The position numbers and the translations under genes were made by a program. Positions 9,558 to 41,853 of a stretch of 41,956 bases of DNA are shown one piece after another. The stretch is from Thermodesulfobacteriota bacterium (GTDB taxonomy: Bacteria > Desulfobacterota > Deferrisomatia > Deferrisomatales > JACRMM01), in the NCBI GenBank assembly GCA_040756475.1, contig JBFLZB010000018.1, positions 1-41,956 on the forward strand, read 5' to 3'. Numbering within the stretch: position 1 is the stretch's first letter; each line of letters opens with the position of its first letter. The notes beneath the pieces were generated by a model, which saw only the letters and a list, made by a program, of their open reading frames with translations, ran no database searches and had not been told where the DNA came from.

Positions 9558-9755
9558 CTACCCCTCGCCGCTCCAAACGCCCTGGCGGAGCTCCCAGAGG
9601 AACAACTCCGCCCCTCCGGCCCGCGGCCTCCCGGTCGATGCTCGCAAGACATCGGCTCTCTTCCCATGACGGGTCGGCACCCACAGGGGCTTCTTCTCCC
9701 GATCCGGGAGGAGTTCCCGGGGGGTGACGATCGGGAGTTCGGGCTCCCGTGCCAC
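9558..9755 (-). CDS. Doubtful small open frame in the 9462-9920 spacer
   Basis: The spacer between the deacetylase and exbB holds one small minus-strand frame of 65 codons with a GTG start. The product is rich in Arg and Pro, has no recognised domain, and ends with LFLWELRQGVWSG. This closely resembles the C-terminus of the alpha/beta hydrolase at 20.5 kb (VFLRELRQGGWSG), because the underlying 35 bp are repeated there. There is no clear ribosome binding site. It may be a remnant of a longer gene or chance. Apart from this, the repeat at 9570 and an operator-like site at 9819, I see nothing in the spacer. Confidence 0.2.
   Translation of the reverse strand: MAREPELPIVTPRELLPDREKKPLWVPTRHGKRADVLRASTGRPRAGGAELFLWELRQGVWSGEG
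9570..9604. repeat. 35-bp repeat shared with the hydrolase 3' end (copy 1)
   Basis: This segment matches 20525-20559 at 31 of 35 positions in the same orientation. The other copy encodes the C-terminal residues of the alpha/beta hydrolase. Confidence 0.5.
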
Positions 9756-9818
9756 GAATTGTCAAAGCGTCGCATTTCTCCCTTGCTGGGAGGGGTTCAG
9801 ATGGGTAGGATCACGCGC

Positions 9819-9845
9819 GTGCCACAATCTTCTACTTCGTGTTAC
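9819..9845 (+). promoter_or_regulatory. Possible NikR operator upstream of exbB (weak)
   Basis: The half sites GTGCCAC (9819-9825) and GTGTTAC (9839-9845) are separated by 13 nt. From memory, the deltaproteobacterial NikR motif is GTGTTAC-N13/14-GTAACAC. The left half matches at 5 of 7 positions and the right at 4 of 7, with correct spacing. It lies 75 bp ahead of the exbB start. It is far weaker than the sites at 21429 and 24259. Confidence 0.3.
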
Positions 9846-9920
9846 GACCGCTGTTTCGGCAGGCCAGACTGAGGGGTGGCGCCTGCTGCGCCACCTTCGG
9901 GGGGTGGACGGGATCGCGTC

Positions 9921-10601
9921 ATGGAGGCCGTTGCCGCGTTACTACAAAAAGCCGGACCCCTGGGGTGGGTGATCCTGCTCTGCTCCGTTGCCGCCGCCGC
10001 CATCGCCCTGGAGCGCGCCTGGGTATTCCGCCGGGTGCGGTTGCAGGATCCCGGGCTGCTCCACGGCGTCCGGGAGAAGGCTGCCGCCGGAGACTTGGCC
10101 GGAGCCGCGTCCCTGGCGGGCCGGGAGCGCCACCCCCTGGCGGTGTCGCTGGCCCACGTGCTCGGCCGGGCCGACCGGGGCTGCTGCACGGGGCGGGCTG
10201 AACTGGAGAAGGCCGTTTCCCACACTGCCTCCCGCGAGGTACGGCGGTTGGAGCGTTTCCTCCCCACCCTGGCCCTCATCGCCCAGGTGGCGCCGCTCCT
10301 GGGGCTGCTGGGCACCGTGACCGGGATGATCGAGGCTTTTCGGGCCATCGAGGCCCTTGGGGGGAAGGTGAACGCCTCGGTGCTCGCAGGCGGCATCTGG
10401 GAGGCATTGCTCACCACCGCCCTGGGCCTGGCGGTGGCGATCCCGACCACCGTAGTCCACAACGCCTTCCAGGGGCGGGTCCACGCCCTGGTGGCCGATC
10501 TCAAGGACGAGGCCGGGGCGCTCTTCGACCTGTTGGAGGACGGCGGCCGGCTGTCCCACGGCCACGGCCACGCGGGCCGCGAGGCCCGGGGAGGCGCCTG
10601 A
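9921..10601 (+). CDS. exbB: ExbB/TolQ-type proton channel subunit
   Basis: A 226-residue inner-membrane protein that with ExbD converts the proton gradient into force on TonB. Three membrane segments are visible: about residues 12-28 (WVILLCSVAAAAIALER), about 110-130 (LALIAQVAPLLGLLGTVTGM) and about 155-175 (ALLTTALGLAVAIPTTVVHN). The MotA/TolQ/ExbB signature APLLGLLGTVTGMIEAF is intact. The C-terminal tail contains a HGHGHAGRE stretch (three alternating His), unusual for ExbB and perhaps metal-related. The ATG at 9921 is chosen because the first membrane helix follows directly. The stop codon overlaps the exbD start (TGATG). It is the first gene of the uptake block. Confidence 0.93.
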   Translation: MEAVAALLQKAGPLGWVILLCSVAAAAIALERAWVFRRVRLQDPGLLHGVREKAAAGDLAGAASLAGRERHPLAVSLAHVLGRADRGCCTGRAELEKAVSHTASREVRRLERFLPTLALIAQVAPLLGLLGTVTGMIEAFRAIEALGGKVNASVLAGGIWEALLTTALGLAVAIPTTVVHNAFQGRVHALVADLKDEAGALFDLLEDGGRLSHGHGHAGREARGGA

Positions 10602-10999
10602 TGGACATCCCAGTGCGGCCCCGGGCGCCGGGCTTGAACCTGACGCCCATGATCGACATCGTGTTCTTGCTCCTGGTCTTCTTTCTCCTCACCACCCACT
10701 TCGTGGAGGAAGGGGGCGTGGGGCTGCGGCTCCCCACCGCCGAGAGCCAGACCGAGCGCCCCGAGGAGCCGGTGACGGTGAGCGTGGCCCGGGACGGCTC
10801 GGTCTACCTGGGGACCGAGGCGGTGACCCTGGTCGGGCTGGTGGAGCGCCTACGGGTCGAGGTGGGACCGGGTGGCCGGCCGGTGGTGGTGCGCGGCGAC
10901 CGGGAGGCGCCCCTCCAGGCTGCGGTCGCGGTGCTCGATGCCGCCCGGGCCGCCGGAGCCGTGCGCCTGGTGGTGGCTACGGAGCACGGGGGGCCGTGA
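10601..10999 (+). CDS. exbD: ExbD/TolR-type biopolymer transport protein
   Basis: A 132-residue protein with a short cytoplasmic N-terminus, one transmembrane helix (MIDIVFLLLVFFLLTT, about residues 17-32) carrying the conserved proton-relay Asp (LTPMIDIVF), and a periplasmic domain ending in VLDAARAAGAVRLVVATE, as in other ExbD/TolR proteins. It partners ExbB. The gene starts on the last base of exbB and its stop overlaps the tonB GTG by 4 nt. All three energising subunits are therefore made in a coupled way directly ahead of the receptor, which suggests a dedicated TonB system. Confidence 0.94.
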   Translation: MDIPVRPRAPGLNLTPMIDIVFLLLVFFLLTTHFVEEGGVGLRLPTAESQTERPEEPVTVSVARDGSVYLGTEAVTLVGLVERLRVEVGPGGRPVVVRGDREAPLQAAVAVLDAARAAGAVRLVVATEHGGP

Positions 11000-11835
11000 C
11001 GCTGCGCACCGCCGCGGCCGTGGCGGGGTCGTTCTTCCTCCATGCTGCGGCCGTCTGGGGGGTGGGCCTGGCGCTTCGGCCGCCGGACCCGCCGGCGCCG
11101 GAAGCCGGAGTGGAGGTCGAGTTCGAGGTGGCCCTGGCGGCCCCCCCTCCCGAGCCCGAGGCTCCAGCTCCGCCGGATGTCCCGCAGGCGCCGGAGCCGG
11201 CGCCCCCCGCTGCTGCGGCACAACCAGAGGCGGTGGTCTCGCGGGAGCCGGAGACCGAACCGAAGGCGCAGCCGGAGTGCGAATCCGAGCCCGAACCGGA
11301 ACCCGAGCCGGAGCCTGAAGCCGAACCGGCGCCGCAGCCGGAGCCCGAGTCGGAGCCCAGGGAGGCGGCCGCCCCGCTTCCGGACCCGAAGCCCGCGCCG
11401 GCAGACCCGGCGCCTACCCCGGTACCGGTGGCCGCTCTTGCCCCTGCGCCCGCCGTGCCCGCCGCCGATCCGGAGCCCTTGGAAGAGGCGGAGTCGTCGG
11501 TTCGGACTGAGGGGGCCCGGGAGGTCCCCAAGCCGGACCCGAGCCCCGACCCGGCGGCCGTGGAGGCATACTACGCTGCGGTTCGGGCGCGGATCGAAGC
11601 GGCCAAACGCTATCCGGCCTGGGCCCGGCGAAACGGGATCGAGGGGCGAGTGACCGTGGCCTTTTGGCTCACAGCCGCGGGCGACCTGGCCGAGGCCGCG
11701 GTGCGGGAGAGCGCGGGCTCCGCGGTCCTGGACGAGGCGGCGGTGGCGGCGGTCCGCCGTGGGGCACCCTATCCTCGGCGGCCGGATGCGAGCCCCGGGG
11801 AACTGGCGGTCACCGTGGTCTTTACACTGCACTGA
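10996..11835 (+). CDS. tonB: TonB energy transducer
   Basis: A 279-residue protein: an N-terminal membrane anchor (about residues 6-28, AAVAGSFFLHAAAVWGVGLAL, with the His expected in the TonB anchor), a long rigid Pro/Glu/Ala linker with repeated Glu-Pro dipeptides (about 35-185), and a C-terminal TonB domain from AKRYPAWARRNGIEGRVTVAFWL to GELAVTVVFTL. The conserved YP and G-V-V-F-L pattern is present. It links the ExbBD motor to outer-membrane receptors. It begins with GTG in a GTGA overlap with exbD. The receptor gene starts 185 bp downstream, which leaves room for separate control of the receptor and transport genes. Confidence 0.95.
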   Translation: MTLRTAAAVAGSFFLHAAAVWGVGLALRPPDPPAPEAGVEVEFEVALAAPPPEPEAPAPPDVPQAPEPAPPAAAAQPEAVVSREPETEPKAQPECESEPEPEPEPEPEAEPAPQPEPESEPREAAAPLPDPKPAPADPAPTPVPVAALAPAPAVPAADPEPLEEAESSVRTEGAREVPKPDPSPDPAAVEAYYAAVRARIEAAKRYPAWARRNGIEGRVTVAFWLTAAGDLAEAAVRESAGSAVLDEAAVAAVRRGAPYPRRPDASPGELAVTVVFTLH

Positions 11836-11886: not shown

Positions 11887-11938
11887 GTAGCACGATTGCA
11901 TAATTCGTAAGCTTTTCGTGTGACCTGGGCTGTCGCAC
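11887..11938 (+). promoter_or_regulatory. Cluster of operator-like half sites ahead of the TonB receptor
   Basis: GTAGCAC (11887-11893), GTGTGAC (11918-11924) and GTCGCAC (11932-11938) lie in the locally AT-rich gap between tonB and the receptor gene. The last two form an inverted repeat with 6 of 7 matching positions over a 7-nt gap. GTAGCAC and GTGTGAC are the same half-site variants seen in the box at 21429, but their order and spacing here do not fit NikR. The regulator is unknown. Confidence 0.3.
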
Positions 11939-12020: not shown

Positions 12021-14234
12021 ATGGGGCAGCGTTTCTGTTTGGGGGCGGCGGTCGCCCTGTTGCTGTGCGGTGGCCTGGCGGCGGCCGGTGCCGTGCTGGC
12101 GGCCACGGAGCTCGCGCCCATCGAGGTCTCGGAAGACCGGCTCGTTACACCCACCCGCCAGACCGGCGAGACGGTATACACGGGCAGCGAGGTGACCCGG
12201 CAGGGCCTGGACCTGCAAGGGACCCGGGCCGCCACCAGCGTGTACCAGGCCCTGGGCATCGTGCCGGGGATCAACGTGGCGGGCGCCGACGCCCGGGGCC
12301 TGGCGGCCGAGCAGGGCAGCGTGCGGGTGCGCGGGGTGCGCAGCATGCTGGGGGCGCTCACGGTGGAGGGGGTGCCCAACTGGGGCGCCAACCCCATCGG
12401 CCCCCGGGATTACCTGTACGACCTGGAAAACATGCAGGCGGTCTCTGTCTACAAAGGTGTCACGCCCGCCGACATCGGCACCGGGGTGGGGTCGCGGGCG
12501 GGGGCGATCGTGCTCCGGCCCCAGTGGCCCGGGGAGACCTTCGGCGCCGAGGTCCGGCAGAGCCTGGGGTCCCACGACTACTCCCGTACCTTCGGCCGGA
12601 TCGACTCGGGGAGCCTCCCGATTCTCGGCACGCGGCTCTCGGGCTCCTACTCCTACACCGACGCGGACAAGTGGCGCGGCCCCGGCAAGCTGGGCCCGCG
12701 GCACAACGCCACCGTGGGGCTGGCCAAGCCCCTGGGGCCCAAGGCGGACCTCAAGCTCCGGTACAACCACAACGACCTGGATCAGCACTTCTACCGGCCC
12801 CTGACCTGGGCCGAGCTCCAGGACCTGGACGAGAATTACCGGAAGGACTACGCGCGAAACGCCACGGGCGTTCCCGCCGAGGACATCTTCTACTACGGCT
12901 ACAACCGGGGCACTTTCGAAAACGACGATCTCCTGGCGATCTTCACCCTCACCCCTGCCGAGGTCTTCGGCCTCACCCTCAAGCCCTACTACGCCAAGGA
13001 GGACACGAAGATCCTCCAGGGGGTCACCGCGGGGGGCGGCCGGGTGCAGGAGCGCAACCGCGAGATCGAGCGCGCGGGCGTGATCGCCGAGGCCCAGGCC
13101 GGCGGGGCGTCGCTGAACGGCGTGCTCGGCTACCACTTCGAGCAGGCCGACATGGACATCTTCACCCGCAACTTCGCCATCACGCCCCAGTGCCTGGCGT
13201 ATCGGGGCCTGGGGGTCTTCGCCACCACGGGCGACACCTACCTCCACAGCCCCTACGGCAAGCTCTCCGGGAGCCTGGGCGCCTTCGACGGGCAGGCGGG
13301 GCTCAAGTACTTCCGCTTCGAGGAAGCGTCGAGCGAGGGGTTCGTCGCGGGGCCGGCGCCCGACTTCGCGCCGGTGCGGGCCCCGGACCTGGATCGGGGG
13401 TCGGAGGTCTACGAGGTCTGGCTCCCCACCCTGGGGGCCGCCTACACCCTGTCGGAACGGGCGCAGGTCTACGGCAGCTACGGCCGCAGCTTCATCCGCC
13501 CCTACTCCTACCTGCCCCTGGTCAACCTGTACAACCAGAACCGGGCCGCCTTCCAGGCCCAGGGCATCGACCTCCAGGAGCTGTTCGACGGTTACGAGCT
13601 GGAGACCTCCGACACCTTCGATCTGGGCCTGCGGCTGAGCGGCGGGTGGTTCGACCTGGCCCCCACGGTGTTCTTCGCCAAGCACCGCAACCTCCTGACC
13701 ACGGTCCACGATCCCCGGGTGAATCTCAACTACCAGCAGAACGTGGGCAAGGCCACCGGCTACGGGGTGGAGCTCGAGGCCAACGCCTACGTGGGGGACG
13801 ACCTGACGCTCTTCGTCAACCCGACCTACACGGTCCTCACTTACGACGAGGACCTGGGTTTCGCCGGCAGCACCCTCGACACGAAGGGCCGGCAGGTGGT
13901 GGACACGCCCCGGTGGCTCTTCAAGGCCGGCCTGAGCTACCGGCCCGGGGGCTTCGAGGTGACGCCCCTGGTGCAGACCCTGGGACCTCGGCACGCCGAC
14001 GCGGAGCACCAAAACCGGGTCGGCTCCCACACGGTGGTGGACCTGCGGGCGAGCTACACCTGGGACCGGGTGCTCGGGGCCCAGCGGGTGAAGCTGGGGC
14101 TGGAGGTGACCAATCTCTTCGACCGCCGGTACGTCTCGGTGATCAACGCCGCCGACGACACCCGGGACGGCACCGCCACCTTCCACCCGGGCCAGTCGTT
14201 CGCGGCCCTGGTGACCTTGGGGGTGGTACTGTGA
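12021..14234 (+). CDS. TonB-dependent outer-membrane receptor
   Basis: A 737-residue outer-membrane receptor. A signal peptide covers about residues 1-28 (AAVALLLCGGLAAAGAVLAA). A TonB-box-like APIEVSED follows, then a plug domain (about 50-155) with GTRAATSVYQALGIVPGINV, SVRVRGVRS and MQAVSVYKGVTPADIG, and a beta-barrel of about 580 residues ending in SFAALVTLGVVL (aromatic/hydrophobic terminal strand). The barrel includes the late FDLGLR and LGLEVTNLFDRRYV motifs of this family. The ATG is preceded by GGAGGAGAGGAGG. The ligand is not readable from sequence. The coupled family-5 binding protein and ABC importer, with NikR genes nearby, suggest nickel or cobalt bound to a small chelator (inference). 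An iron siderophore is the alternative. Confidence 0.93.
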   Translation: MGQRFCLGAAVALLLCGGLAAAGAVLAATELAPIEVSEDRLVTPTRQTGETVYTGSEVTRQGLDLQGTRAATSVYQALGIVPGINVAGADARGLAAEQGSVRVRGVRSMLGALTVEGVPNWGANPIGPRDYLYDLENMQAVSVYKGVTPADIGTGVGSRAGAIVLRPQWPGETFGAEVRQSLGSHDYSRTFGRIDSGSLPILGTRLSGSYSYTDADKWRGPGKLGPRHNATVGLAKPLGPKADLKLRYNHNDLDQHFYRPLTWAELQDLDENYRKDYARNATGVPAEDIFYYGYNRGTFENDDLLAIFTLTPAEVFGLTLKPYYAKEDTKILQGVTAGGGRVQERNREIERAGVIAEAQAGGASLNGVLGYHFEQADMDIFTRNFAITPQCLAYRGLGVFATTGDTYLHSPYGKLSGSLGAFDGQAGLKYFRFEEASSEGFVAGPAPDFAPVRAPDLDRGSEVYEVWLPTLGAAYTLSERAQVYGSYGRSFIRPYSYLPLVNLYNQNRAAFQAQGIDLQELFDGYELETSDTFDLGLRLSGGWFDLAPTVFFAKHRNLLTTVHDPRVNLNYQQNVGKATGYGVELEANAYVGDDLTLFVNPTYTVLTYDEDLGFAGSTLDTKGRQVVDTPRWLFKAGLSYRPGGFEVTPLVQTLGPRHADAEHQNRVGSHTVVDLRASYTWDRVLGAQRVKLGLEVTNLFDRRYVSVINAADDTRDGTATFHPGQSFAALVTLGVVL

Positions 14235-16776: not shown

Positions 16777-17608
16777 CTCCCGCCGGTCCCTGGCCCGGGA
16801 CCCCTGGTTTGGAACCGCCGGCCTGCTGGCCCTGGCCTTGCTGGCCCTGGCCGTGCTCGGCCCGGCGCTGACCCCCCACGACCCCCACGACATCTCCTTC
16901 GCGCCCTTGAGCCCGCCGTCCGCCGAGCACTGGCTCGGGACCAACGACGGGGGGATGGACCTCGCGTCCGAGCTCGTGCACGGCCTGCGCCACACGGCGT
17001 GGTTCGGCCTCCTGGGCGGGTCGACGGCCCTGGTGCTGGGGGTCGGGATCGGCCTCGCTGCAGCTTGGTTCGGCGGCGCCGTCGACGCCTTCTGCATGCG
17101 GCTGGCAGACGTCTTGCTGGCGATCCCGACCGTGATGCTGCTCATCCTGGCGGCGGTCTTGGTTCGACCCACGCCGACGCTCCTGGCGGTGCTGCTCGCG
17201 TGCCTGATCTGGCCGACCACCGCCAAGGGCATCCGGGCCCAGGCCCTGGTGCTGCGAAACCGCCTCCACGTGCGGGCGGCCCAGCAAATGGGTGCCTCGG
17301 GGCGCTACGTCATCGTCCGGCACCTTGTGCCGGAGCTCTTCCCCCTCTACCTGGTCAGCTTCGTCGGCAAGACCCGCCTGGCCGTGACCATGGAGGCGAC
17401 CCTCGCCTTCCTCGGGCTGTTCGACCCGGGGCACCTGTCCCTGGGCCTCATGATCCGCACCGGGAGCCAGTTCTACTACCTCGCCGGGTGGTGGCACTGG
17501 CTGCTGCCGCCGGTGGCGTGCCTGACCCTGCTGCTGCTGGCCCTGACCTGCCTGGCGGTCAGCCTGGAGCAGGCGTTCGACCCGCGCCTTGTGGGTGGTT
17601 GGCGATGA
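16766..17608 (+). CDS. ABC importer permease, DppC/NikC type
   Basis: A 280-residue inner-membrane permease. It has the N-terminal DppC layout: basic tail, helix 1 (LLALALLALAVLGPAL), PHDPHDISFAPLSPPSAEHWLGTNDGGMDLASELVHG. The last stretch is the family's LGTD.xGRD motif in variant form (GTNDGGMD). The coupling loop is ALVLRNRLHVRAAQQMGASGRYVIVRHLVPELFPLYLV, and MEATLAFLGLFDPG follows. It begins with GTG 11 nt inside the previous gene, and its TGA overlaps the ATG of the ATPase gene. It is probably the second half of the channel. Confidence 0.92.
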   Translation: MVGNSRRSLARDPWFGTAGLLALALLALAVLGPALTPHDPHDISFAPLSPPSAEHWLGTNDGGMDLASELVHGLRHTAWFGLLGGSTALVLGVGIGLAAAWFGGAVDAFCMRLADVLLAIPTVMLLILAAVLVRPTPTLLAVLLACLIWPTTAKGIRAQALVLRNRLHVRAAQQMGASGRYVIVRHLVPELFPLYLVSFVGKTRLAVTMEATLAFLGLFDPGHLSLGLMIRTGSQFYYLAGWWHWLLPPVACLTLLLLALTCLAVSLEQAFDPRLVGGWR

Positions 17609-19386
17609 TGAAACTCTCCCGGTGGAGCGTTGCCTACCGCGACGGCGACCACGACCTGTTGGCCCTGGACCGGGTCGACCTGAGCCTGGAGCCCGGTCGG
17701 ATCGTGGCACTGGTGGGGGAGTCGGGCTCGGGCAAGACCACCCTGGCGCGCTCGCTGCTGGGGCTGCTGCCGCCCAACGCCCGGGTCACCGGCTCCCTGG
17801 GGCTGGGGGCGAGAGCCCTCGGCGGTCTGCCCGAAGCCGACTGGCGCGGGCTTCGCTGGACCCAGGTGTCCCTGGTGTTTCAACACGGCGCGGCAAGCCT
17901 CAACCCCCTGCACGCCGTCATCGATCAGGTGGCCGAGCCCCTGGTCGAGCACCTCGGCCTGGGCCGACGGGAAGCGGCCCACCGGGCGGGTGCCGCGCTC
18001 CAAGCGCTGGGGCTCGACCTGTCCCTGGCACGGCGCTTCCCCCACGAGCTGAGCGGCGGCCAGGTCCAGCGGGCACTCCTGGCCATGGCCCTGATCCTCG
18101 ATCCGGCGGTGGTGGTCCTCGACGAGCCGACCGCGGCGCTGGACGCCGTGACCAAGCGGTTCGTGGCCGGGGTGATCCGCGGCCTGCGCGACCGGGGCAA
18201 GGCGATCCTGCTGATCACCCACGACCTGGAGGTGGCCCGTACCCTGGCCGACGAGGTAGCGGTGCTCTACCTGGGCCAGGTGGTCGAGACCCTGTCGGCC
18301 GCCGACCTGCTGTGCCGGCCGCGTCACCCCTACACCCTCGCCCTGGGCCGCTCCTATCCCGCCCTGGACGCGGTGCGGGACCTGGGGGGCATCCGGGGCG
18401 ACGCCTTCTACCGCCTCGTCCACGCCCACGGCCGCAACGACGGGCCGCCCCACACCCACGGCAGCGCCCCCGGGATCACCCCGGAGCCTGGCCACGAGAC
18501 CGGGCACGGGCCGGCCCAGGGCTGCCTGTTCGAGCCCCGCTGCACCCAGGCGCTGCCGGCGTGTGCCGAGCAGGAGGTGTTCCTGGTGCCGGCCGGCGCC
18601 CACGCCGTGCGCTGCCTACGGGGCGGGATCGCCGACCTTGTGGCGCTGGTCCAGGTGGGCAAGACCTACGGCCCGGTGACTGCCCTGGCGCCCCAGGATC
18701 TGACGCTACGCTGCGGCGAGGTCTTCTGCCTGGTGGGGGAGACCGGCTCGGGCAAGAGCACCCTGGCCCTGATCGCCGCCGGCGCCCTGCGGCCCGACGG
18801 CGGCTCCCGCTCCTTCGCCGGCCGCGATCTGGACGCCTGGCTGGCCACGGACCCCCGCGGCCTGGCCCGCCGGATCGGCGTCATCTATCAGAACCCCGGC
18901 CAGGCGGTGAGCCACCGCCTGAACGCCTTCGAGATCGTGGCCGAGCCCCTGCGCATCCAAGCTGGCCGGCGAGACCCGGAAGAGCTCCGCCGCCGGGTGG
19001 TGCAGGCCCTCGCCGAGGTGCACCTGCCTACCCGCCCCGAGTTCCTCGGGCGCTACCCCCACGAGCTCAATCAGGGCGCCCTCCAGCGCCTGTGCATCGC
19101 CCGCGCATTGATCACCGAGCCGGCGCTGGTGGTCGCCGACGAGCCCACCAGCGCCCTGGACCCCGGGGTCCAGGCCAAGGTCCTCAAACGGTTGCTGGAC
19201 CTGCAGATCGAGAAGGGGTTGACCCTGCTCCTGGTGACCCACGACCTGGGCCTGGCCCGCAAGGTGAGCGACCGCATCGGCGTGATGGACCGCGGCCGGC
19301 TGGTGGAGATCGGCCCCGCCGCCCACGTTCTCGCGCACCCGGAGCACCCCTGCACCCGGCAGTTGCTGGCCAGCGCCGGGGCGTGA
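17605..19386 (+). CDS. Fused double ABC ATPase (DppD-DppF / NikD-NikE in one chain) with His-rich linker
   Basis: A 593-residue cytoplasmic protein with two nucleotide-binding domains. NBD1 shows Walker A GESGSGKT (38-45), LSGGQ (149-153), Walker B VVVLDEP and the switch His in LLITHD. It ends with the Cys-bearing Opp-type tail (CLFEPRCTQALPAC...VRC, about 307-337). NBD2 shows Walker A GETGSGKS (378-385), Walker B LVVADEP and LLVTHD. Its signature reads ELNQGALQR (488-496) instead of LSGGQ. The linker at about 272-302 holds six His (HAHG, HTHG, GHETGHG), suggestive of Ni/Co/Zn binding. Opp/Nik systems normally use two separate ATPase genes. The asymmetric signatures suggest that one ATP site is degenerate. 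The ATG overlaps the preceding stop (ATGA). Confidence 0.92.
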   Translation: MMKLSRWSVAYRDGDHDLLALDRVDLSLEPGRIVALVGESGSGKTTLARSLLGLLPPNARVTGSLGLGARALGGLPEADWRGLRWTQVSLVFQHGAASLNPLHAVIDQVAEPLVEHLGLGRREAAHRAGAALQALGLDLSLARRFPHELSGGQVQRALLAMALILDPAVVVLDEPTAALDAVTKRFVAGVIRGLRDRGKAILLITHDLEVARTLADEVAVLYLGQVVETLSAADLLCRPRHPYTLALGRSYPALDAVRDLGGIRGDAFYRLVHAHGRNDGPPHTHGSAPGITPEPGHETGHGPAQGCLFEPRCTQALPACAEQEVFLVPAGAHAVRCLRGGIADLVALVQVGKTYGPVTALAPQDLTLRCGEVFCLVGETGSGKSTLALIAAGALRPDGGSRSFAGRDLDAWLATDPRGLARRIGVIYQNPGQAVSHRLNAFEIVAEPLRIQAGRRDPEELRRRVVQALAEVHLPTRPEFLGRYPHELNQGALQRLCIARALITEPALVVADEPTSALDPGVQAKVLKRLLDLQIEKGLTLLLVTHDLGLARKVSDRIGVMDRGRLVEIGPAAHVLAHPEHPCTRQLLASAGA

Positions 19387-19664: not shown

Positions 19665-20420
19665 ATGGACCCATCCCCGTACCGCCAAGAGGTCGAAGCG
19701 CTGCTCGCATCCCGAAACCTGAAGGGCCTGCTCGACCGCGCCGGCCAGCTCCACGGCCATGTGTGCGGCTTCGTGGGTTACGGCGTACTGGCCGGCTACC
19801 ACGGTCTGACCCTCCTGGGGGCCGCGACCCACCAGGGCATGGAGGAGGTGGTGGCCATCGTGGAGACCAACTCCTGCTTCCCCGACGGGGTGCAGGCCGT
19901 CACCGGCTGCACCTTCGGCAACAACTGCCTGGTCTACCGGGACTACGGCAAGACCGCCGTGACCCTGGCGACCCGGGCGGGCGACGCCGTGCGCCTGGCC
20001 CTGCGCCCCGAGTGCCAGGAGGCGGCATTTCGCGACTGCCCGGAGGCGGGCGCCCTGTTCCAGAAGCTGGTGGCCCGCCGCGAAGAGGGCACCCCCGAGG
20101 AGCGGCGCCGCCTGCTGGCACTGTTCCAGGAACTTGCCGTCGCCGCCCTGGAGCTGCCCGCCGAGGCCGTCTTTCGGATCCAGCGGAGCACCATCGACGT
20201 GCCCGCCTACGCCCGGATCTTTCCCTCGGTCCGGTGCGCTTCCTGCGGCGAGAACGTCATGGAGTCCAAGGTCGTGGACCGAAACGGCAGTCGCCGGTGC
20301 GTGCCCTGCGCCGGGGGCGGCTACGGGGAGCTGAACGGCGGCGGCATCTTCCAGGCGCCGGGCCAAGGGGGAGACGGCCGAGTGGGGGAAGGCAGGCGAG
20401 AGTCGCGCCCGGCGCCATAG
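19665..20420 (+). CDS. FmdE-family protein with C-terminal zinc ribbon
   Basis: A 251-residue cytoplasmic protein. The N-terminal FmdE domain (about residues 20-170) has the HGHVCGFVGYGVLAGYHGL motif (His30, His32, Cys34), CFPDGVQAVTGCTFGNNC (Cys71, Cys82, Cys88) and RDYGKTAVTL. The C-terminus has a four-Cys zinc ribbon (C191-X2-C194 and C212-X2-C215). The family is named after a gene in the molybdenum formylmethanofuran dehydrogenase operon, and its biochemical function is unsettled. The ribosome binding site GAAGGAGG fixes the ATG. Placed at the end of a TonB/ABC uptake operon, the Cys/His-rich protein may receive, sense or insert the imported metal (inference). It is separated from the transporter genes by the palindromic insertion. 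Confidence 0.85.
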   Translation: MDPSPYRQEVEALLASRNLKGLLDRAGQLHGHVCGFVGYGVLAGYHGLTLLGAATHQGMEEVVAIVETNSCFPDGVQAVTGCTFGNNCLVYRDYGKTAVTLATRAGDAVRLALRPECQEAAFRDCPEAGALFQKLVARREEGTPEERRRLLALFQELAVAALELPAEAVFRIQRSTIDVPAYARIFPSVRCASCGENVMESKVVDRNGSRRCVPCAGGGYGELNGGGIFQAPGQGGDGRVGEGRRESRPAP

Positions 20421-20512: not shown

Positions 20513-21439
20513 TTACTCCGGCCCACTCCAACCGCCCTGACGGAGCTCCCGGAGGAACACCGCTGCGAGCGCCTGGGGGCGGTGGAGGTGGATGTCGTGG
20601 TGGGTGTCGGGGAACCAGTGGAGCGCGGAGCGGGGCAGGGCGCGCCGGGCGGCGGCGACCTCCCGGCGGCGCACCTCCCGGTGGCGGCTCCCATCCTCGG
20701 CGGCGCACAGGACGACGGGCTCCCCCACCTGGGGGTAGAGCGCCGAAGGCGTCTGCTCCCACAGGCCCCGCAGGATCGCAAGGTGGCGCTCCAGGGTGAG
20801 CCAGGGGCGCACGGTGCCGTCGGGTAGCCGCTCGAAGCAGGCCATCACGGCGTCCACGGCTTCCTCGGTCCACTCGGGGTTCCCGGCTCGGATACGCTCC
20901 CGTAGCCGCTCCCACGGGGTGCCGCGCAGCTCCGGTGGCCGAAGCTCCCGGGCTGTCTCCTCCCACGTGGCTCCGGGCCGTTCCCGAAGCGCGATCCAGC
21001 CGCCGTCCACGAGCCCCAACCCGCGGGTCAGCCCGGGATGCCGGGCGCCGAGCTCCAGCACCACGTTGCCGCCCCAGGACTGGCCCACCACCACGGGCCG
21101 CTCCCAGCCCAGCGCGCCGACAAGCCCCGCCAGGTCGGCCGCCACGTCCCCCGGGCCGTAGCCCGCCGGGGGCTTTTCACTGCACCCGTGCCCGCGCAGG
21201 TCCGGCGCCGCCACGGCGTGGCCTGCGGCACTGAGCTCCCGGGCCACCAGGTCCCAGGTCCGGGCGTTGCTCGCCAGGCCGTGGAGGAGGACGAAGCCGG
21301 GCTCTTCCCCGGGCCAGAGGCGCAGGCACAGCCGCACCCCGACCTCGAGCGCCCGCACTTCGGGCAGACGAAGGGCAGCGGAAGCGCAGGGGGCGGGAGG
21401 GGCCCAGGGTGTCGGGGAAACGGCCATGGTGTGACGCAT
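20513..21439 (-). CDS. Alpha/beta-hydrolase fold protein under a NikR-like operator
   Basis: A 308-residue predicted hydrolase. Visible features are the oxyanion region FVLLHGLASNARTWD, the nucleophile elbow VVVGQSWGGN (Ser in G-X-S-X-G), a helical cap region, and the late HWFPDTHHDIHLHRPQALAAVFL with the catalytic His. The acid may be the Asp in CAAEDGS. The substrate is unknown; ester or lactone hydrolysis is typical for the fold. I start at the ATG at 21439 because the predicted -10 (TACCAT) lies 7 nt before it, giving a leaderless message. The ATG at 21427 is the alternative, and neither has a Shine-Dalgarno. The hydrolase converges on fmdE. The operator suggests it serves metal acquisition, perhaps by opening a metal chelate (speculative). 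Confidence 0.88.
   Translation of the reverse strand: MRHTMAVSPTPWAPPAPCASAALRLPEVRALEVGVRLCLRLWPGEEPGFVLLHGLASNARTWDLVARELSAAGHAVAAPDLRGHGCSEKPPAGYGPGDVAADLAGLVGALGWERPVVVGQSWGGNVVLELGARHPGLTRGLGLVDGGWIALRERPGATWEETARELRPPELRGTPWERLRERIRAGNPEWTEEAVDAVMACFERLPDGTVRPWLTLERHLAILRGLWEQTPSALYPQVGEPVVLCAAEDGSRHREVRRREVAAARRALPRSALHWFPDTHHDIHLHRPQALAAVFLRELRQGGWSGPE
20525..20559. repeat. 35-bp repeat, copy 2, inside the hydrolase 3' end
   Basis: It matches 9570-9604 at 31 of 35 positions in the same orientation. Read on the minus strand it encodes FLRELRQGGWS near the hydrolase C-terminus. Confidence 0.5.
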
Positions 21440-21456
21440 GTTGCGAATGGTAGCAC
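21429..21456 (-). promoter_or_regulatory. NikR-like operator overlapping the hydrolase promoter
   Basis: On the plus strand the site reads GTGTGAC-N14-GTAGCAC, 28 bp in all. It agrees with the remembered deltaproteobacterial NikR motif GTGTTAC-N14-GTAACAC at 12 of 14 half-site positions with exact spacing. On the minus strand the extended -10 TGCTACCAT overlaps one half site, and TTGGAG lies 18 nt upstream of TACCAT as a plausible -35. NikR binding here would block RNA polymerase. Confidence 0.6.
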
Positions 21457-21495
21457 GAACGTCTGGATGACTCCAAGGCTTCACGCGTCCTACGC

Positions 21496-21693
21496 TCCAC
21501 CACCTGGGTGGCAAGCGGCGTCCGGGAGCCCTTGCGCTCCGCCCCGCAATCCGCGATGTTCGAAGGCCGCGTAGCCGAGGGAGCCGGCGCGCCGAGCCTC
21601 ACCGCTTTCGGCCTCGCCGCCGCGGTTCGGTCGAGGCGGTACGGGGCTGCGCTCCAGGACTCCCGGACCCCGCCCCAAGGATTTGGTGGTGGA
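21496..21693 (+). repeat. 198-bp palindromic repeat, copy A
   Basis: It is bounded by the inverted ends TCCACCAC (21496-21503) and GTGGTGGA (21686-21693). Inside, GTCCGGGAG...GCCCCG near the left end pairs with its inverse near the right end at 22 of 27 positions. It shares long near-identical stretches with copy B, same orientation, and with copies C and D. It has no start-to-stop gene and no transposase. It lies between the hydrolase promoter and the end of nikO. Confidence 0.75.
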
Positions 21694-21723
21694 CTCTGGC
21701 GTCCCGGGCGCGCTGCCGACGGG

Positions 21724-22497
21724 TCAGGTAGCGGGCCCCCCGGGGGCGCGGGCGCCGCAGACGGGGCACCCCTGGAGGCTCAGGGGCCGCTCCAGGCCGC
21801 AGGCCGCGAGCAGCGCATCGTCCCGGAAGATCTCGGTCGTGGGGCCGTCGGCGGCCACCTGGCCCTGGCGGATCACGATGGTGCGCCGGCAGAGCTCGAG
21901 GACGAGATCCAGGTCGTGGGTGGCGATGATCTTGGTGTGCTCGAAGGACTGGAGGAGCCGAATCAGGCGGCGGCGGGCCCCCGGGTCGAGGTTGGAGGAG
22001 GGCTCGTCCATCACCAGGATGTCGGGGCTCATGGCTAGCACGGTGGCGATGGCCACGGCCCGCTTCTCGCCCCCCGAGAGATGGTAGGGGGGCCGTTCCC
22101 GCAGGGCCAGCGCCCCCACCCGCTCCAGCGACCGGGCGACCCGCGCCTCCACCTCGTCGGCGGGGAGGCCCAGGTTCAGGGGGCCGAAGGCCACGTCGTC
22201 GCCCACCGTGGGCATGAAGAGCTGGTCGTCCGGGTCCTGGAAGACCATGCCCACGGTCTTTCGCACCTCCCCCAGGGTCTGCCTCGTCAGAGGGAAATCG
22301 CCGATGCGCACGCGGCCTTCCTGGGGGGTGAGGTAGCCGTTGAGGTGCAGGAGCAGCGTGGACTTGCCTGCCCCGTTGGCCCCCACCACCGCCACCGATT
22401 CCCCGTGCACCACCCGGAAGGAGAGGCCCCGCAGGGCCCGGGTGCCGTCCGGGTAGGCGTAGGCGAGCCCCTCCACCTCTATAATGTGGTGGCTCAT
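21724..22497 (-). CDS. nikO: ECF-type nickel/cobalt importer ATPase
   Basis: A 257-residue ABC ATPase of the CbiO/NikO group that powers the nikMNQO importer. It shows [15 protein letters not shown] at the start, Walker A GANGAGKS (39-46), the Q-loop [22 protein letters not shown] (the QLF-type motif of ECF ATPases), signature [18 protein letters not shown], Walker [15 protein letters not shown] and the switch IIATHDLD. The C-terminus ends [11 protein letters not shown], a possible small metal or thiol motif not usual in CbiO. The ATG at 22497 overlaps the nikQ stop (ATGA), so it is coupled. Only one ATPase is encoded, implying a homodimer. Confidence 0.95.
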
Positions 22498-23306
22498 CCT
22501 ACGAGCCCCGTGACCGCTGCTCCCAGGAGCTGGGGGAGGTCGAAGAGCCGAAACGCCAGGAAGGCGAGCCCCCACCCGGTCCCGAAGGCGAGCTCCCGGG
22601 CGCCCAGCCGCGCCCCGTGCCGGCCCCGCAGCTCGCCGGTGAATCCCCGGCAGCGCATGGCCAGGTGGATGCGCTGGGCCCGGTCCAGGGTGCGCAGGAG
22701 CAGGTGGCCGAGCAGGCTCCCGTACACCCCCATCCCCAAGCCCTTCTTCCCGAAGGTACGCAGCGCCCGGGCGCGCACCAGGCGCACCGCCTCCTCACCC
22801 AGCACGAAGATGTAGCGGTACAGGAAGAGGAGTTGCACCGTGAGCACCTGGGGCGTGCCGAGCCGCTGCAGGGCGGCGCACAGCCCCTGGAAGCTCGTGG
22901 TGGCGATGAGGACCAGCGCCGTGCCCACCGTGAGGCAGAACCGCAGTTGAATGGAGAGGAAGGACACCCATCCCCCGCTCAGCTCCAGGGGTCCGAGCCG
23001 CACGAGGATCTCCCGGTCCAGCAGGGGGTTGAAGATCCCGACGAGGATGGCGAAAGGGGTCACGGCCAGGAGCCGAAGGCCCAGGTAGCCCAAGGGGATC
23101 CGCCCGGCGCTCGCCAGTGCTACGGGGTAGAGGAAGAAGGGAAGGAGCGCCGAGATCTCGTACTTGCCGAAGGAGACCACGGCGACGAGGAACGCCATCG
23201 TGGTCAAGAGCTTCGCGCGGGCGTCGAGGCGGTGGACCGAGGTGTCCTGGCGGGCCAGCCGGTCGAGGCGGCCCACGTCGAAGTAGGAGGCGTCGATGCG
23301 GGCCAC
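22494..23306 (-). CDS. nikQ: ECF-type nickel/cobalt importer transmembrane subunit
   Basis: A 270-residue inner-membrane protein of the CbiQ/NikQ (EcfT) family. It starts with a Ser/Arg-rich stretch ending in VHRLDARAKLLTTMAFLVAVVSF, the EcfT entry motif before helix 1. Four to five hydrophobic helices follow, and the two coupling motifs are recognisable: VRARALRTFG (first Ala-Arg-Gly-type motif, with Ala in place of Gly) and AMRCRGFTGE (second). These contact the two ATPase subunits. The GTG start lies 6 bp after the nikR stop. It belongs to the nikR-nikQ-nikO operon and joins NikMN from the divergent operon. Confidence 0.93.
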   Translation of the reverse strand: MARIDASYFDVGRLDRLARQDTSVHRLDARAKLLTTMAFLVAVVSFGKYEISALLPFFLYPVALASAGRIPLGYLGLRLLAVTPFAILVGIFNPLLDREILVRLGPLELSGGWVSFLSIQLRFCLTVGTALVLIATTSFQGLCAALQRLGTPQVLTVQLLFLYRYIFVLGEEAVRLVRARALRTFGKKGLGMGVYGSLLGHLLLRTLDRAQRIHLAMRCRGFTGELRGRHGARLGARELAFGTGWGLAFLAFRLFDLPQLLGAAVTGLVG

Positions 23307-23312
23307 GGGCGC

Positions 23313-23732
23313 TTAGACCAGATCCTTGCCGGTGGTAGACGTGACGAGCTTGCCGTGTTTGACGCCCTTGGTGCCGATGAGCTCGTCCGCCAGGCGGCGC
23401 ACCTCGGTGGTCTTGCCCCGCACCACCACGACCTCCAGGCAGTGGTGGGCGTCGAGGTGCACGTGGAGCGCCGAGACGATGGAGCCGTGGTGGCTGTGCT
23501 GCTGCTCGGTGAGCTTGTCCGAGAGGTCCCGGGTGTGGTGGTCGTAGACGAGGGTGACGGTGCCCACGATCTCCTCGTCGGACCGGGACCACTGGTCCTC
23601 CACCAGGGCGTTGCGGATGAGGTCCCGGATGGCCTCCGAGCGGTTCACGTACCCCTTGCGGTCGATGAGCTCATCGAACCGCTGGAGCAAGCGGTCGTCG
23701 ATGGAGATTCCAAACCGCACCACCTCGGCCAT
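23313..23732 (-). CDS. nikR: Nickel-responsive ribbon-helix-helix regulator
   Basis: A 139-residue regulator that represses nickel uptake genes when nickel is bound. The N-terminal ribbon-helix-helix DNA-binding segment is [19 protein letters not shown] followed by [16 protein letters not shown]. The C-terminal ACT-like domain carries the square-planar nickel ligands His79, His90, His92 and Cys98, with spacings 11, 2 and 6 that equal His76/His87/His89/Cys95 of E. coli NikR. The ATG at 23732 gives the normal NikR length. It leads the nikR-nikQ-nikO operon, and nikMN starts 566 bp away on the other strand. Operators predicted at 24259 and 21429 are its likely targets. Confidence 0.97.
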
Positions 23733-23767
23733 GACATGTCTCCCCTCCACAGTGCAGAGGGCTCCTG

Positions 23768-23795: not shown

Positions 23796-23818
23796 GGGCG
23801 TGGGGGGCACATCCTGGA

Positions 23819-24015
23819 TCCAACTCCTCGGTGGCAAGCGGGGTCCGGGAGCCCTTGCGCTCCGCCCCGCAATCCACGATGTCCGGAAGCAGTGTAGTCG
23901 AGGGAGCCGGTGCTCCGAGCTTCACTGCTTTCGGCTGAGCTGCTGCAGTTCGGTCGAGGCGGCACGGGGCTCCGCTCCAGGGCTCCCGGACCCCGCCCCA
24001 GACCTTGGTGGTGGA
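23819..24015 (+). repeat. 198-bp palindromic repeat, copy B
   Basis: 197 bp in the same orientation as copy A, with a degenerate left end TCCAACTC and an intact right end GTGGTGGA (24008-24015). The first 50 bp after the end are nearly identical to copy A. It lies upstream of nikR, so copies A and B bracket nikR-nikQ-nikO exactly. Confidence 0.75.
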
Positions 24016-24019
24016 TTCT

Positions 24020-24184
24020 GGGGCGTGGGGCATGGGGCATGGAGCCGGGGGGCACCGGCGAGAACCCGGGCCTGCCATCTGCCCCATTCGTCGGCTCGGT
24101 CGGATCTGTCCGAGCGGTCCCATGGACCGCCCGGTCCCCAACCCGCAACGCGCAACCCGCAACCCGCAACGCGCAACCTGCAAC
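24020..24184. repeat. Composite 7-mer / 9-mer / 7-mer tandem arrays, locus 1
   Basis: Three tandem 7-mers of the form GGGGCRT (24020-24040) are followed by four 9-mers beginning GTC (24090-24125; first unit GTCGGCTCG) and then seven 7-mers of the form NNGCAAC (24136-24184; first CCCCAAC, then CCGCAAC and GCGCAAC). A second locus at 36833-36964 has the same order. This fills most of the nikR-nikM gap. Confidence 0.6.
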
Positions 24185-24258: not shown

Positions 24259-24286
24259 GTGTTACGATTATCAAAAGTGATTACAC
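24259..24286 (+). promoter_or_regulatory. NikR operator of nikMN
   Basis: GTGTTAC (24259-24265) and ATTACAC (24280-24286) are separated by 14 nt, 28 bp in all. The left half is a perfect match to the remembered deltaproteobacterial NikR half site, and the right half matches at 5 of 7. It lies directly downstream of the predicted -10 and abuts the ribosome binding site (GGAGG) of nikMN, the right place for repression. Confidence 0.7.
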
Positions 24287-24298
24287 AGGAGGTCGCCC

Positions 24299-25330
24299 AT
24301 GCACATGGCCGATGCGCTCTTGTCCCCCGCCGTGGGCGGGGCCATGTGGGCCGCTACTGCGGCGTCCACGGCTTACTGCTCCCGGAAGGTCCGCGAGGAG
24401 ATGGACGACCGGAAGGTGCCTCTGATGGGGGTGTTGGGGGCGTTCGTCTTCGCGGCCCAGATGATCAACTTCGCGATCCCGGGCACCGGGTCGAGCGGCC
24501 ACCTGGGGGGAGGGCTGCTCCTGGCGATCCTCCTCGGCCCCCACGCGGCCTTTCTCGTGATGGCCTCGGTGCTGGCGGTGCAGGCGCTCTTCTTCGCCGA
24601 CGGGGGGCTCCTGGCCCTGGGGGCCAACATCTTCAACCTGGGCGTTTTCCCGTGTTTCGTGGCCTATCCCCTCCTGTACCGGCCCTTGGCGGGGCGCGAC
24701 CCCACCCCGGGGCGCATCGCCGCCGCCGCCGTGCTGGCGTCAGTGATCGGCCTCCAGTTCGGCGCCCTGGGCGTGGTACTCCAGACGGTGCTCTCGGGGA
24801 TCTCCGAGCTGCGCTTTGCCCCGTTCCTCGCCCTCATGCTGCCGATCCACCTGGCCATCGGGGTGGTGGAGGGGCTCGTCACGGCGGCGGTGGTCACCTT
24901 CGTAGCGCGCGCCCAGCCGGACATCCTGGCCCGGCAGTCGGCCCCCCGGGCGCGGCCCGGGGCCTCGGTCCGGAGCGTCCTGCTGGGGCTGGGGGCAGCG
25001 GCCCTGGTGATCGGGGCCGTGGTTTCCTGGTTCGCCTCCTCCCACCCCGACGGGCTCGAGTGGTCCATCGCCGGGGTGACGGGCTCCGAGGAGGTGGAGC
25101 CCCCGGAGGGCGGCGTGCACGAGAGCCTGGGCCGCCTCCAGGAGAAGCTCTCCTTCTTGCCCGACTACGGGTTCCAGTCGTCCGGGGAAGAAGGGGAGGG
25201 GGAGGGGGAGCCGGCGTGGCCCGCGGTGGATCCCGGCACGAGCGTTTCCGGGGTGGTGGGCGGCGTGCTGACGTTGGTCGTGGCCGGTGCGGCCGGATGG
25301 GTTCTGCGACGCCGAGCGAGAACGGCCTGA
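24299..25330 (+). CDS. nikM: Nickel/cobalt ECF importer substrate-specific component, NikM-NikN fusion
   Basis: A 343-residue inner-membrane protein. The N-terminal CbiM/NikM domain starts MHMADALLSP, keeping Met1-His2, whose N-terminal amide nitrogens and His2 form the metal site, and has NFAIPGTGSSGHLGGG with the second ligand His68. About six further hydrophobic segments follow up to residue 210. The C-terminal part is a NikN/PDGLE domain with HPDGLEW at about 248-254 and a final membrane helix (VVGGVLTLVVAGAAGWVL). Fusions of NikM and NikN are known in ECF nickel importers. GGAGG precedes the ATG. It works with NikQ and NikO from the divergent operon and is followed after 30 bp by the porin gene. 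Confidence 0.95.
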   Translation: MHMADALLSPAVGGAMWAATAASTAYCSRKVREEMDDRKVPLMGVLGAFVFAAQMINFAIPGTGSSGHLGGGLLLAILLGPHAAFLVMASVLAVQALFFADGGLLALGANIFNLGVFPCFVAYPLLYRPLAGRDPTPGRIAAAAVLASVIGLQFGALGVVLQTVLSGISELRFAPFLALMLPIHLAIGVVEGLVTAAVVTFVARAQPDILARQSAPRARPGASVRSVLLGLGAAALVIGAVVSWFASSHPDGLEWSIAGVTGSEEVEPPEGGVHESLGRLQEKLSFLPDYGFQSSGEEGEGEGEPAWPAVDPGTSVSGVVGGVLTLVVAGAAGWVLRRRARTA

Positions 25331-25360: not shown

Positions 25361-26455
25361 GTGAAGAAGCCGCTTGCCGTGGTCCTCGCGTCCACACTCG
25401 TGCCCTTGAGCGTAGCCGCCGCCACTCTGGAGGAACGGGTGGAAACCCTGGAGAAGCGCGACGCCGAGCTCTACCACACCCTGGCCGAGCGAAAGTCGGC
25501 AGGTCTTCTGGCTTCCATCGGTGAGCGCCTCTGGGTCTCGGGGCTCCTGGAGGTCGAGGCGTCCTACGAGCGGCTCAAGTTCGGAGACGAGGGGCACGAG
25601 TCGACCAGCGACCTCGTGGTGGCCGCCGCGCAGCTCGGCTTCGGGGCCCGGATCACCGAGCACGTGGATGGGGCGATCGCGTTTCTCTTCGAGGAGGGCG
25701 AGACCGACCCGCCGGAGGTGGATGAGGCGATCATCGGCTACGCCCGCGACGGGTGGTTCGCGCGCTTCGGGCGCCAGTACGTGCCCTTCGGGGAGTTTTC
25801 GAGCCACTTCGTCTCCGACCCCTTGACCCTGGAGCTGGGCGAGACCCGGGAGACGGCGGCCCTGGTGGGTTACGCGCACGAGCCCTTCTCCATCGCGGCC
25901 TTCCTGTTCAACGGAGATGCCGAACGGGTCAACGCGGCCGGCGAGGCCGAGGAGAGCCACCTGAAGGATTGGGGCGTGGGCGTAAAGCTGATGCCCGTGG
26001 AGTGGCTGGAGCTCGGGGGGAGCTTCCTCTCGGACCTGGCCGACACGGATGCGGAGCTGGCTGCGGAGTACCGACGGCGGGTGCCCGGGTGGAGCGCCTA
26101 CGCGGCCGCCTCCCTCGGCCCGGTGGCGGTGAGCGGTGAGGTGCTGGGCGCGGTGCGGGCGTTTTCGTCCGAGGACCTGGACGAGGACGGCGACGGTTCG
26201 GGCGACCGCCCCCTGGCCTGGAACGTGGAGGCCGCGTGGGAGGCCCTGGAAAGTGTGGAACTCGCAGGCCGGGTGGAGGGCAGCCGGGAGTTCGCCGGCC
26301 AGCCCGAGCTCCAGTACGGCCTGTGTGCCTCCTGGGGTCCCTGGGAGCACGTGAGCCTATCGCTCGAGTACCTGCGGGGTCGTTTCGACCGGGACTTCGG
26401 CGAGGGGCTCAAGTCCCGCGACCGCGTCACGGCCCAGCTGGCGGTGGAGTTCTGA
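25361..26455 (+). CDS. Outer-membrane porin resembling the LbtU family
   Basis: A 364-residue predicted outer-membrane beta-barrel. It has a signal peptide (about residues 1-20, KKPLAVVLASTLVPLSVAAA), a short coiled segment LEERVETLEKRDAELYHTLAE (about 23-43), then alternating amphipathic strands such as VSGLLEVEASYERL, WFARFGRQYVPFG, TAALVGYAHEPFSIAAFLF and YAAASLGPVAVSG. It ends with the canonical terminal VTAQLAVEF (aromatic last residue). The layout matches LbtU-type porins, which take up siderophore in Legionella without TonB. The GTG is preceded by GGAGGAGG and lies 30 bp after nikMN. I infer a role in passing nickel or a nickel complex through the outer membrane. The start is firm; the substrate is inferred. 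Confidence 0.8.
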   Translation: MKKPLAVVLASTLVPLSVAAATLEERVETLEKRDAELYHTLAERKSAGLLASIGERLWVSGLLEVEASYERLKFGDEGHESTSDLVVAAAQLGFGARITEHVDGAIAFLFEEGETDPPEVDEAIIGYARDGWFARFGRQYVPFGEFSSHFVSDPLTLELGETRETAALVGYAHEPFSIAAFLFNGDAERVNAAGEAEESHLKDWGVGVKLMPVEWLELGGSFLSDLADTDAELAAEYRRRVPGWSAYAAASLGPVAVSGEVLGAVRAFSSEDLDEDGDGSGDRPLAWNVEAAWEALESVELAGRVEGSREFAGQPELQYGLCASWGPWEHVSLSLEYLRGRFDRDFGEGLKSRDRVTAQLAVEF

Positions 26456-26819: not shown

Positions 26820-26904
26820 GCCCCATCTCCTCCCCCCGTCGTCGCAGCCCATCGGTCTGGCGAACCTATCATCGACAGCGTTGGGGATTCCAGGCCGTCC
26901 AGAA

Positions 26905-27103
26905 TCCGCGACCCAAATCTTTGGGGCGGGGTCCGGGAGTCCTGGAGCGCAGCCCCGTACCGCCTCGACCGAACCGCAGCAGCGAGGCCGAAAGCGGTGA
27001 GGGTCGGCGCGCCGGCTCCCTCGGCTACGCTGCATCCGAACACCGCGGATTACGGGGCGGAGCGCAAGGGCTCCCGGACCCCGTTTGCCACCCGGGTGGC
27101 GGA
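26905..27103 (-). repeat. 198-bp palindromic repeat, copy C (inverted)
   Basis: 199 bp in the opposite orientation to copies A, B and D. Its ends are TCCGCGAC (26905-26912) and GTGGCGGA (27096-27103). Compared with copies A and D, the fourth base of the end and its partner have both changed (A:T to G:C), keeping the pairing. It lies between the GIY-YIG gene and the ABC-2 ATPase promoter and fills most of the 26820-27203 gap. Confidence 0.75.
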
Positions 27104-27122
27104 TCGCGGTCGCCCCGCCCCG

Positions 27123-41424: not shown

Positions 41425-41560
41425 CGCTCGCTCCTCTCTCCCGGGGGCCGTGGCCGGCATGTGGTTCGCAGGGGAAGCCGCCTCCCGGTCAGCCGACGCT
41501 GCGCGAGGCGCCATCCTACCACCCTGCGTGCGACTTTCCCACGCCGGGGCGGCCCCGCGA

Positions 41561-41794
41561 TCCACCACCTGGGTGGCGAGCGGGGTCCGGGAGCCCCTGC
41601 GCTTCGCCGCTGGCCACGAAGGGCGCGTGTCGCGGAGCCCAGGAGCGGCGGGAGCGACCCCGCAATCCGCGCTCATTCGATGAGGGGCCCCTCACGAAAC
41701 CGGCGCGCCTCGGTTTCCACCGGTTGCGGCGGATCGGTCGATGCGGTACGGGGCTACGCTCCGGGGCGACCCCGCCCCAAGATTCGGTGGTGGA
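41561..41794 (+). repeat. 198-bp palindromic repeat, copy D (divergent, 234 bp)
   Basis: It has both intact ends TCCACCAC (41561-41568) and GTGGTGGA (41787-41794) and keeps the first 30 bp of copies A and B, but the middle is strongly diverged and expanded. It lies upstream of the Nudix gene and 59 bp from a transposase fragment. The rest of the 41425-41853 gap shows nothing recognisable. Confidence 0.6.
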
Positions 41795-41853
41795 TTCTGG
41801 GGCGCCTGGTAGCGGTTTCGGCGTGTCGGCCAGGGCGATCGCACATAAAAACC

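Follow-up and report, generated by a model that had tools for sequence, protein, structure and literature searches.

The window analyzed here, a stretch of 41,956 nucleotides from a Thermodesulfobacteriota bacterium, carries a set of nickel genes together with an alpha/beta hydrolase gene on the minus strand (20513–21439), which encodes 308 amino acids when read from ATG 21439 and matches the family profiles PF12697 (E = 3.6e-24) and PF00561 (E = 1.4e-20) above their cut-offs. On the same strand, this gene is preceded by nikR (23313–23735; PF08753 and NF003381 over cut-off), nikQ for a CbiQ-type permease (22494–23306; TIGR02454 over cut-off) and nikO for a CbiO-type ATPase (21724–22575), with a gap of about 285 bp between nikO and the hydrolase gene, and nikMN (CbiM plus PDGLE, 24299–25330) is located on the plus strand. 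One NikR match was obtained in the genome search. On its other side, the hydrolase gene is convergent with an FmdE-family gene (19665–20420). The window also contains nikABC-like genes and a fused nikDE-like ATPase, the genes exbB-exbD-tonB (9876–11835), of which exbD was identified by reading the sequence alone, and a TonB receptor gene (12021–14234). The NikD-like and NikE-like ATPases are joined in one reading frame of 593 amino acids (17605–19386), and the FmdE-family protein, which has a C-terminal dksA/traR-type zinc finger, ends the nikABCDE-like cluster.

A predicted NikR operator, the 28-bp inverted repeat GTGTGAC-N14-GTAGCAC (GTGTGACGCATGTTGCGAATGGTAGCAC), was located at positions 21429–21456, where it spans an extended -10 element and the ATG 21439 of the hydrolase gene. 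As the first-pass annotation had claimed, the site matches the delta-proteobacterial NikR consensus GTGTTAC-[N13/14]-GTAACAC (PMC545781) in 12 of 14 half-site positions. Only 0.03 sites with at least 12/14 matches are expected per window of the same composition, and two were found, namely the hydrolase site and the predicted nikMN operator at 24259–24286 (12/14), which occupies the same position as the nikMN operators of relatives. To score these sites, an order-specific matrix was built from 13 operators of nikR-nikMN intergenic regions (12 operators from other genomes and the source genome's own nikMN site), the hydrolase site itself being outside the training set. With this matrix, the hydrolase site ranked second in the window at 18.5 bits, behind the exbB site (23.3 bits), and the own nikMN site scored 17.9 bits. 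When the matrix was retrained without the own-genome site and without the G006-only site (G006 being a relative from the same order), the hydrolase site reached 17.5 bits and the site of its G006 orthologue 18.9 bits. In 4 Mb of simulated DNA, one score of at least 17.5, the level of the hydrolase site, was observed and none at the level of the G006 site, and scores as high as that of the hydrolase site are expected about 5e-5 times per 200 bp. Real DNA from unrelated loci (1.22 Mb) yielded no score of at least 18.46. Allowing at most one mismatch, the IUPAC motif identified the exbB site alone (N13) and the hydrolase site alone (N14) in the 5-Mb genome. Since reversed-pattern controls in ten relatives gave about 0.2 (N13) and 0.5 (N14) matches per Mb at the same stringency, the weight rests on the position of the site and not on its genome-wide uniqueness. 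The A/T-rich run common to most nikMN operators is absent from the spacer of the hydrolase operator. A looser pattern, GTGTGAY..RTCACAC, was uninformative (2 found versus 2.9 expected).

Further predicted NikR operators were identified upstream of exbB-exbD-tonB, one at 9819–9845 (23.3 bits, no motif mismatches), the best in the window, and a second at 9749–9775 (16.5 bits); these paired sites suggest that the TonB system is under NikR control. A weaker NikR-like site lies upstream of the TonB receptor gene (11887–11913, 12.2 bits). Close to it, GTGTGAC-N7-GTCGCAC is present at 11918–11938 with the wrong spacing. In relatives, the motif likewise led to plausible targets, an lbtU-like porin gene (G005) and nikK/nikL-like genes with a TonB receptor gene (G008), all of which were identified by sequence reading. 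Matches in G010 and G007 were discarded because of their location inside open reading frames, and a match in G002 because of its low score.

As no plus-strand gene begins just beyond the operator at 21429–21456, the hydrolase gene is its sole sensible target. The gene would form a single-gene transcription unit and a member of the NikR regulon. The proposed overlap of the operator with an extended -10 was borne out at the level of the letters, with TGCTACCAT being read directly inside the operator half-site (21447–21455, minus strand), but a sigma-70 scan gave no scoring promoter at this element. It was further proposed that the transcript is leaderless and starts at the ATG itself, which now appears doubtful. 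The geometry fits, given that the extended -10 ends about 7 nucleotides ahead of ATG 21439 and that neither this codon nor the alternative ATG 21427 is preceded by a Shine-Dalgarno sequence. However, the leaderless state is not conserved in G006, where the hydrolase gene has a leader of about 55 nucleotides and a Shine-Dalgarno-like GAGAGG ahead of its ATG, and in the source genome another alternative start, GTG 21484, carries AGGA ahead of it. In addition, residues 1–21 are disordered in the AlphaFold (AF2) model and have no counterparts in most homologues, so that the start codon is uncertain and the real start may be elsewhere than at 21439.

The first-pass annotation had also predicted that the hydrolase is repressed by NikR, and this prediction is supported mainly by the orthologue in G006, which keeps the operator apart from any nik gene. 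At E <= 1e-40, the hydrolase gene was found in 2 of 395 genomes of the phylum, the source genome and G006, and the remaining 10 genomes of the same order lack it; conservation of the operator thus rests on two genomes, with one other genome in which it could be tested. G006 belongs to the same order but to a different family, and its hydrolase, which is 57% identical, is encoded on a separate contig, where no nik gene lies closer than about 9 kb and none was found across the 19.9 kb read. A strong predicted NikR site, GTGGCACCCAGTTTTTTTTCGTGCTAC, is located 62–88 bp before the ATG of this gene. A search of the 3-Mb G006 genome with the N13 motif (at most one mismatch) returned this site and the nikMN operator and no others, and chance would produce a comparable site within 150–200 bp of a gene named in advance about 1e-4 times or less. 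The two hydrolase promoters have TTCGTGCTACYAT in common, and in G006, too, the half-site forms an extended -10. Among NikA-like proteins, G006 encodes distant ones alone, and the TonB receptor of the window has no close counterpart there. A phylogenetic tree places the two hydrolases as sisters (96/96) in a clade made up mainly of Chloroflexota sequences, which suggests a single acquisition of the gene. Taken together, the operator match and its conservation make NikR control of the hydrolase gene likely, and the enzyme is very probably switched on by nickel shortage.

Ser121, Asp145 and His281 of the hydrolase are invariant among 11 aligned homologues, and Ser121 is situated in the nucleophile elbow GQS121WGG; these residues would form a Ser-Asp-His triad with Asp145 as the presumed acid. 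No signal sequence is visible in the protein and no NCBIfam equivalog was obtained at cut-off. The AF2 model (pLDDT 89.9) has its closest PDB fold match in 3kxp, the E-2-(acetamidomethylene)succinate hydrolase (Z 32.5, rmsd 2.2, 261 aligned residues), followed by a group of matches at about 28 (Z 28.4 at the top). The triad Ser and Asp of 3kxp align with those of the hydrolase, but the identity is only 21–22%, so that the substrate is not inferable from the fold match and a shared substrate is not indicated. Substrate binding in the 3kxp enzyme involves Arg146, Arg167 and Arg179 (PMC3538738), at whose positions the cap region of the hydrolase aligns weakly.

It had also been proposed to survey whether homologues sit beside nik genes. 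This was the case at none of 80 loci outside the order (some of them only 3–7 kb long), and G006 was likewise negative. Nor was a NikR site at the score of the hydrolase site found in these 80 loci, which include Chloroflexota and Actinomycetota. In one Anaerolineales genome, the homologue and a Fur-family gene are transcribed divergently, with ABC genes for zinc uptake behind the Fur-family gene, and the shared intergenic region holds TGCAAAT-N7-ATTTGCA, which may belong to the Fur-family/zinc-uptake cluster alone. In Chloroflexota and one Proteobacteria MAG (loci L010–L017), the homologue adjoins an unclassified protein that sometimes carries a CysS_C-like tail. No NikR-controlled hydrolase was found in the literature searched, which is no proof of absence.

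Known targets of NikR are mostly transporters. The retention of an enzyme gene's operator in two families, even far from nickel genes, points to a link between some metabolic step and nickel shortage. We infer that nickel-loaded NikR, bound to the operator over the -10 and start region, would block transcription of the hydrolase gene at high nickel supply. When nickel runs short, the hydrolase would be made alongside NikMNQO, and the ExbB/TonB outer-membrane system would probably be co-expressed with it. The delta-proteobacterial NikR regulon has operators of the same form and nikMNQO as core targets, but an alpha/beta hydrolase is not among its targets (PMC545781); here, an enzyme and exbB/tonB would be added.

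Concerning the role of such an enzyme, one tentative explanation is that the hydrolase takes the place of a nickel enzyme without needing nickel itself, or that NikR has captured a general hydrolase. The position of the G006 gene, independent of transport genes, agrees with this, but we know of no nickel enzyme with matching chemistry. A precedent is provided by the Fe-only hydrogenase genes hydAB of Desulfovibrio desulfuricans, predicted to be NikR-repressed and likewise encoding a non-transport enzyme (PMC545781), although this hydrogenase has an obvious nickel counterpart and none is evident for the hydrolase. Replacement of a nickel-dependent step is no less conceivable than chelate cleavage. 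The hydrolase would act on a small organic ligand, possibly, in the simplest case, one with affinity for nickel or one taken up together with it. Fes-type iron-chelate esterases are cytoplasmic hydrolases made under metal starvation, and they share with the present case the idea of a starvation-induced cytoplasmic enzyme, though they belong to a different hydrolase branch. By analogy, the hydrolase might cleave a nickel chelate or metallophore and free nickel in the cell, in the way that Fes acts on iron-enterobactin. This appears doubtful, although the predicted co-regulation with uptake genes, including those for TonB energization, the apparently cytoplasmic location, the amide cleavage of a dicarboxylate by the enzyme of nearest structure and the Anaerolineales locus with its zinc-uptake genes are in its favor. 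Against it, G006 retains the hydrolase and its operator without this TonB receptor, and the homologues are not clustered with nickel genes. Chelate cleavage fits with the TonB genes that accompany the hydrolase gene in the window. The proposal that an organic nickel chelate would be broken after import, by an enzyme under its own NikR operator independent of the nik clusters, seems rather unlikely. The hydrolase gene is a concrete candidate for the handling of nickel-binding molecules, and a chelate-cleaving hydrolase, if true, would be the nickel counterpart of siderophore esterases. Finally, the motif is short and degenerate and many promoters were inspected in the first reading, but an accidental operator match at a hydrolase gene without nickel regulation is very unlikely in view of the site upstream of the orthologue (chance about 1e-4 or less).

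Besides the hydrolase, an LbtU-type siderophore porin is encoded downstream of nikMN (25361–26455), and a strong predicted NikR site is present upstream of its G005 relative (L167). A dispersed intergenic repeat of about 200 bp, whose copies are 85–91% alike, occurs at 21493–21699, 23817–24021, 26899–27106 and in part of 41545–41809, including the regions ahead of the hydrolase gene and ahead of nikR.
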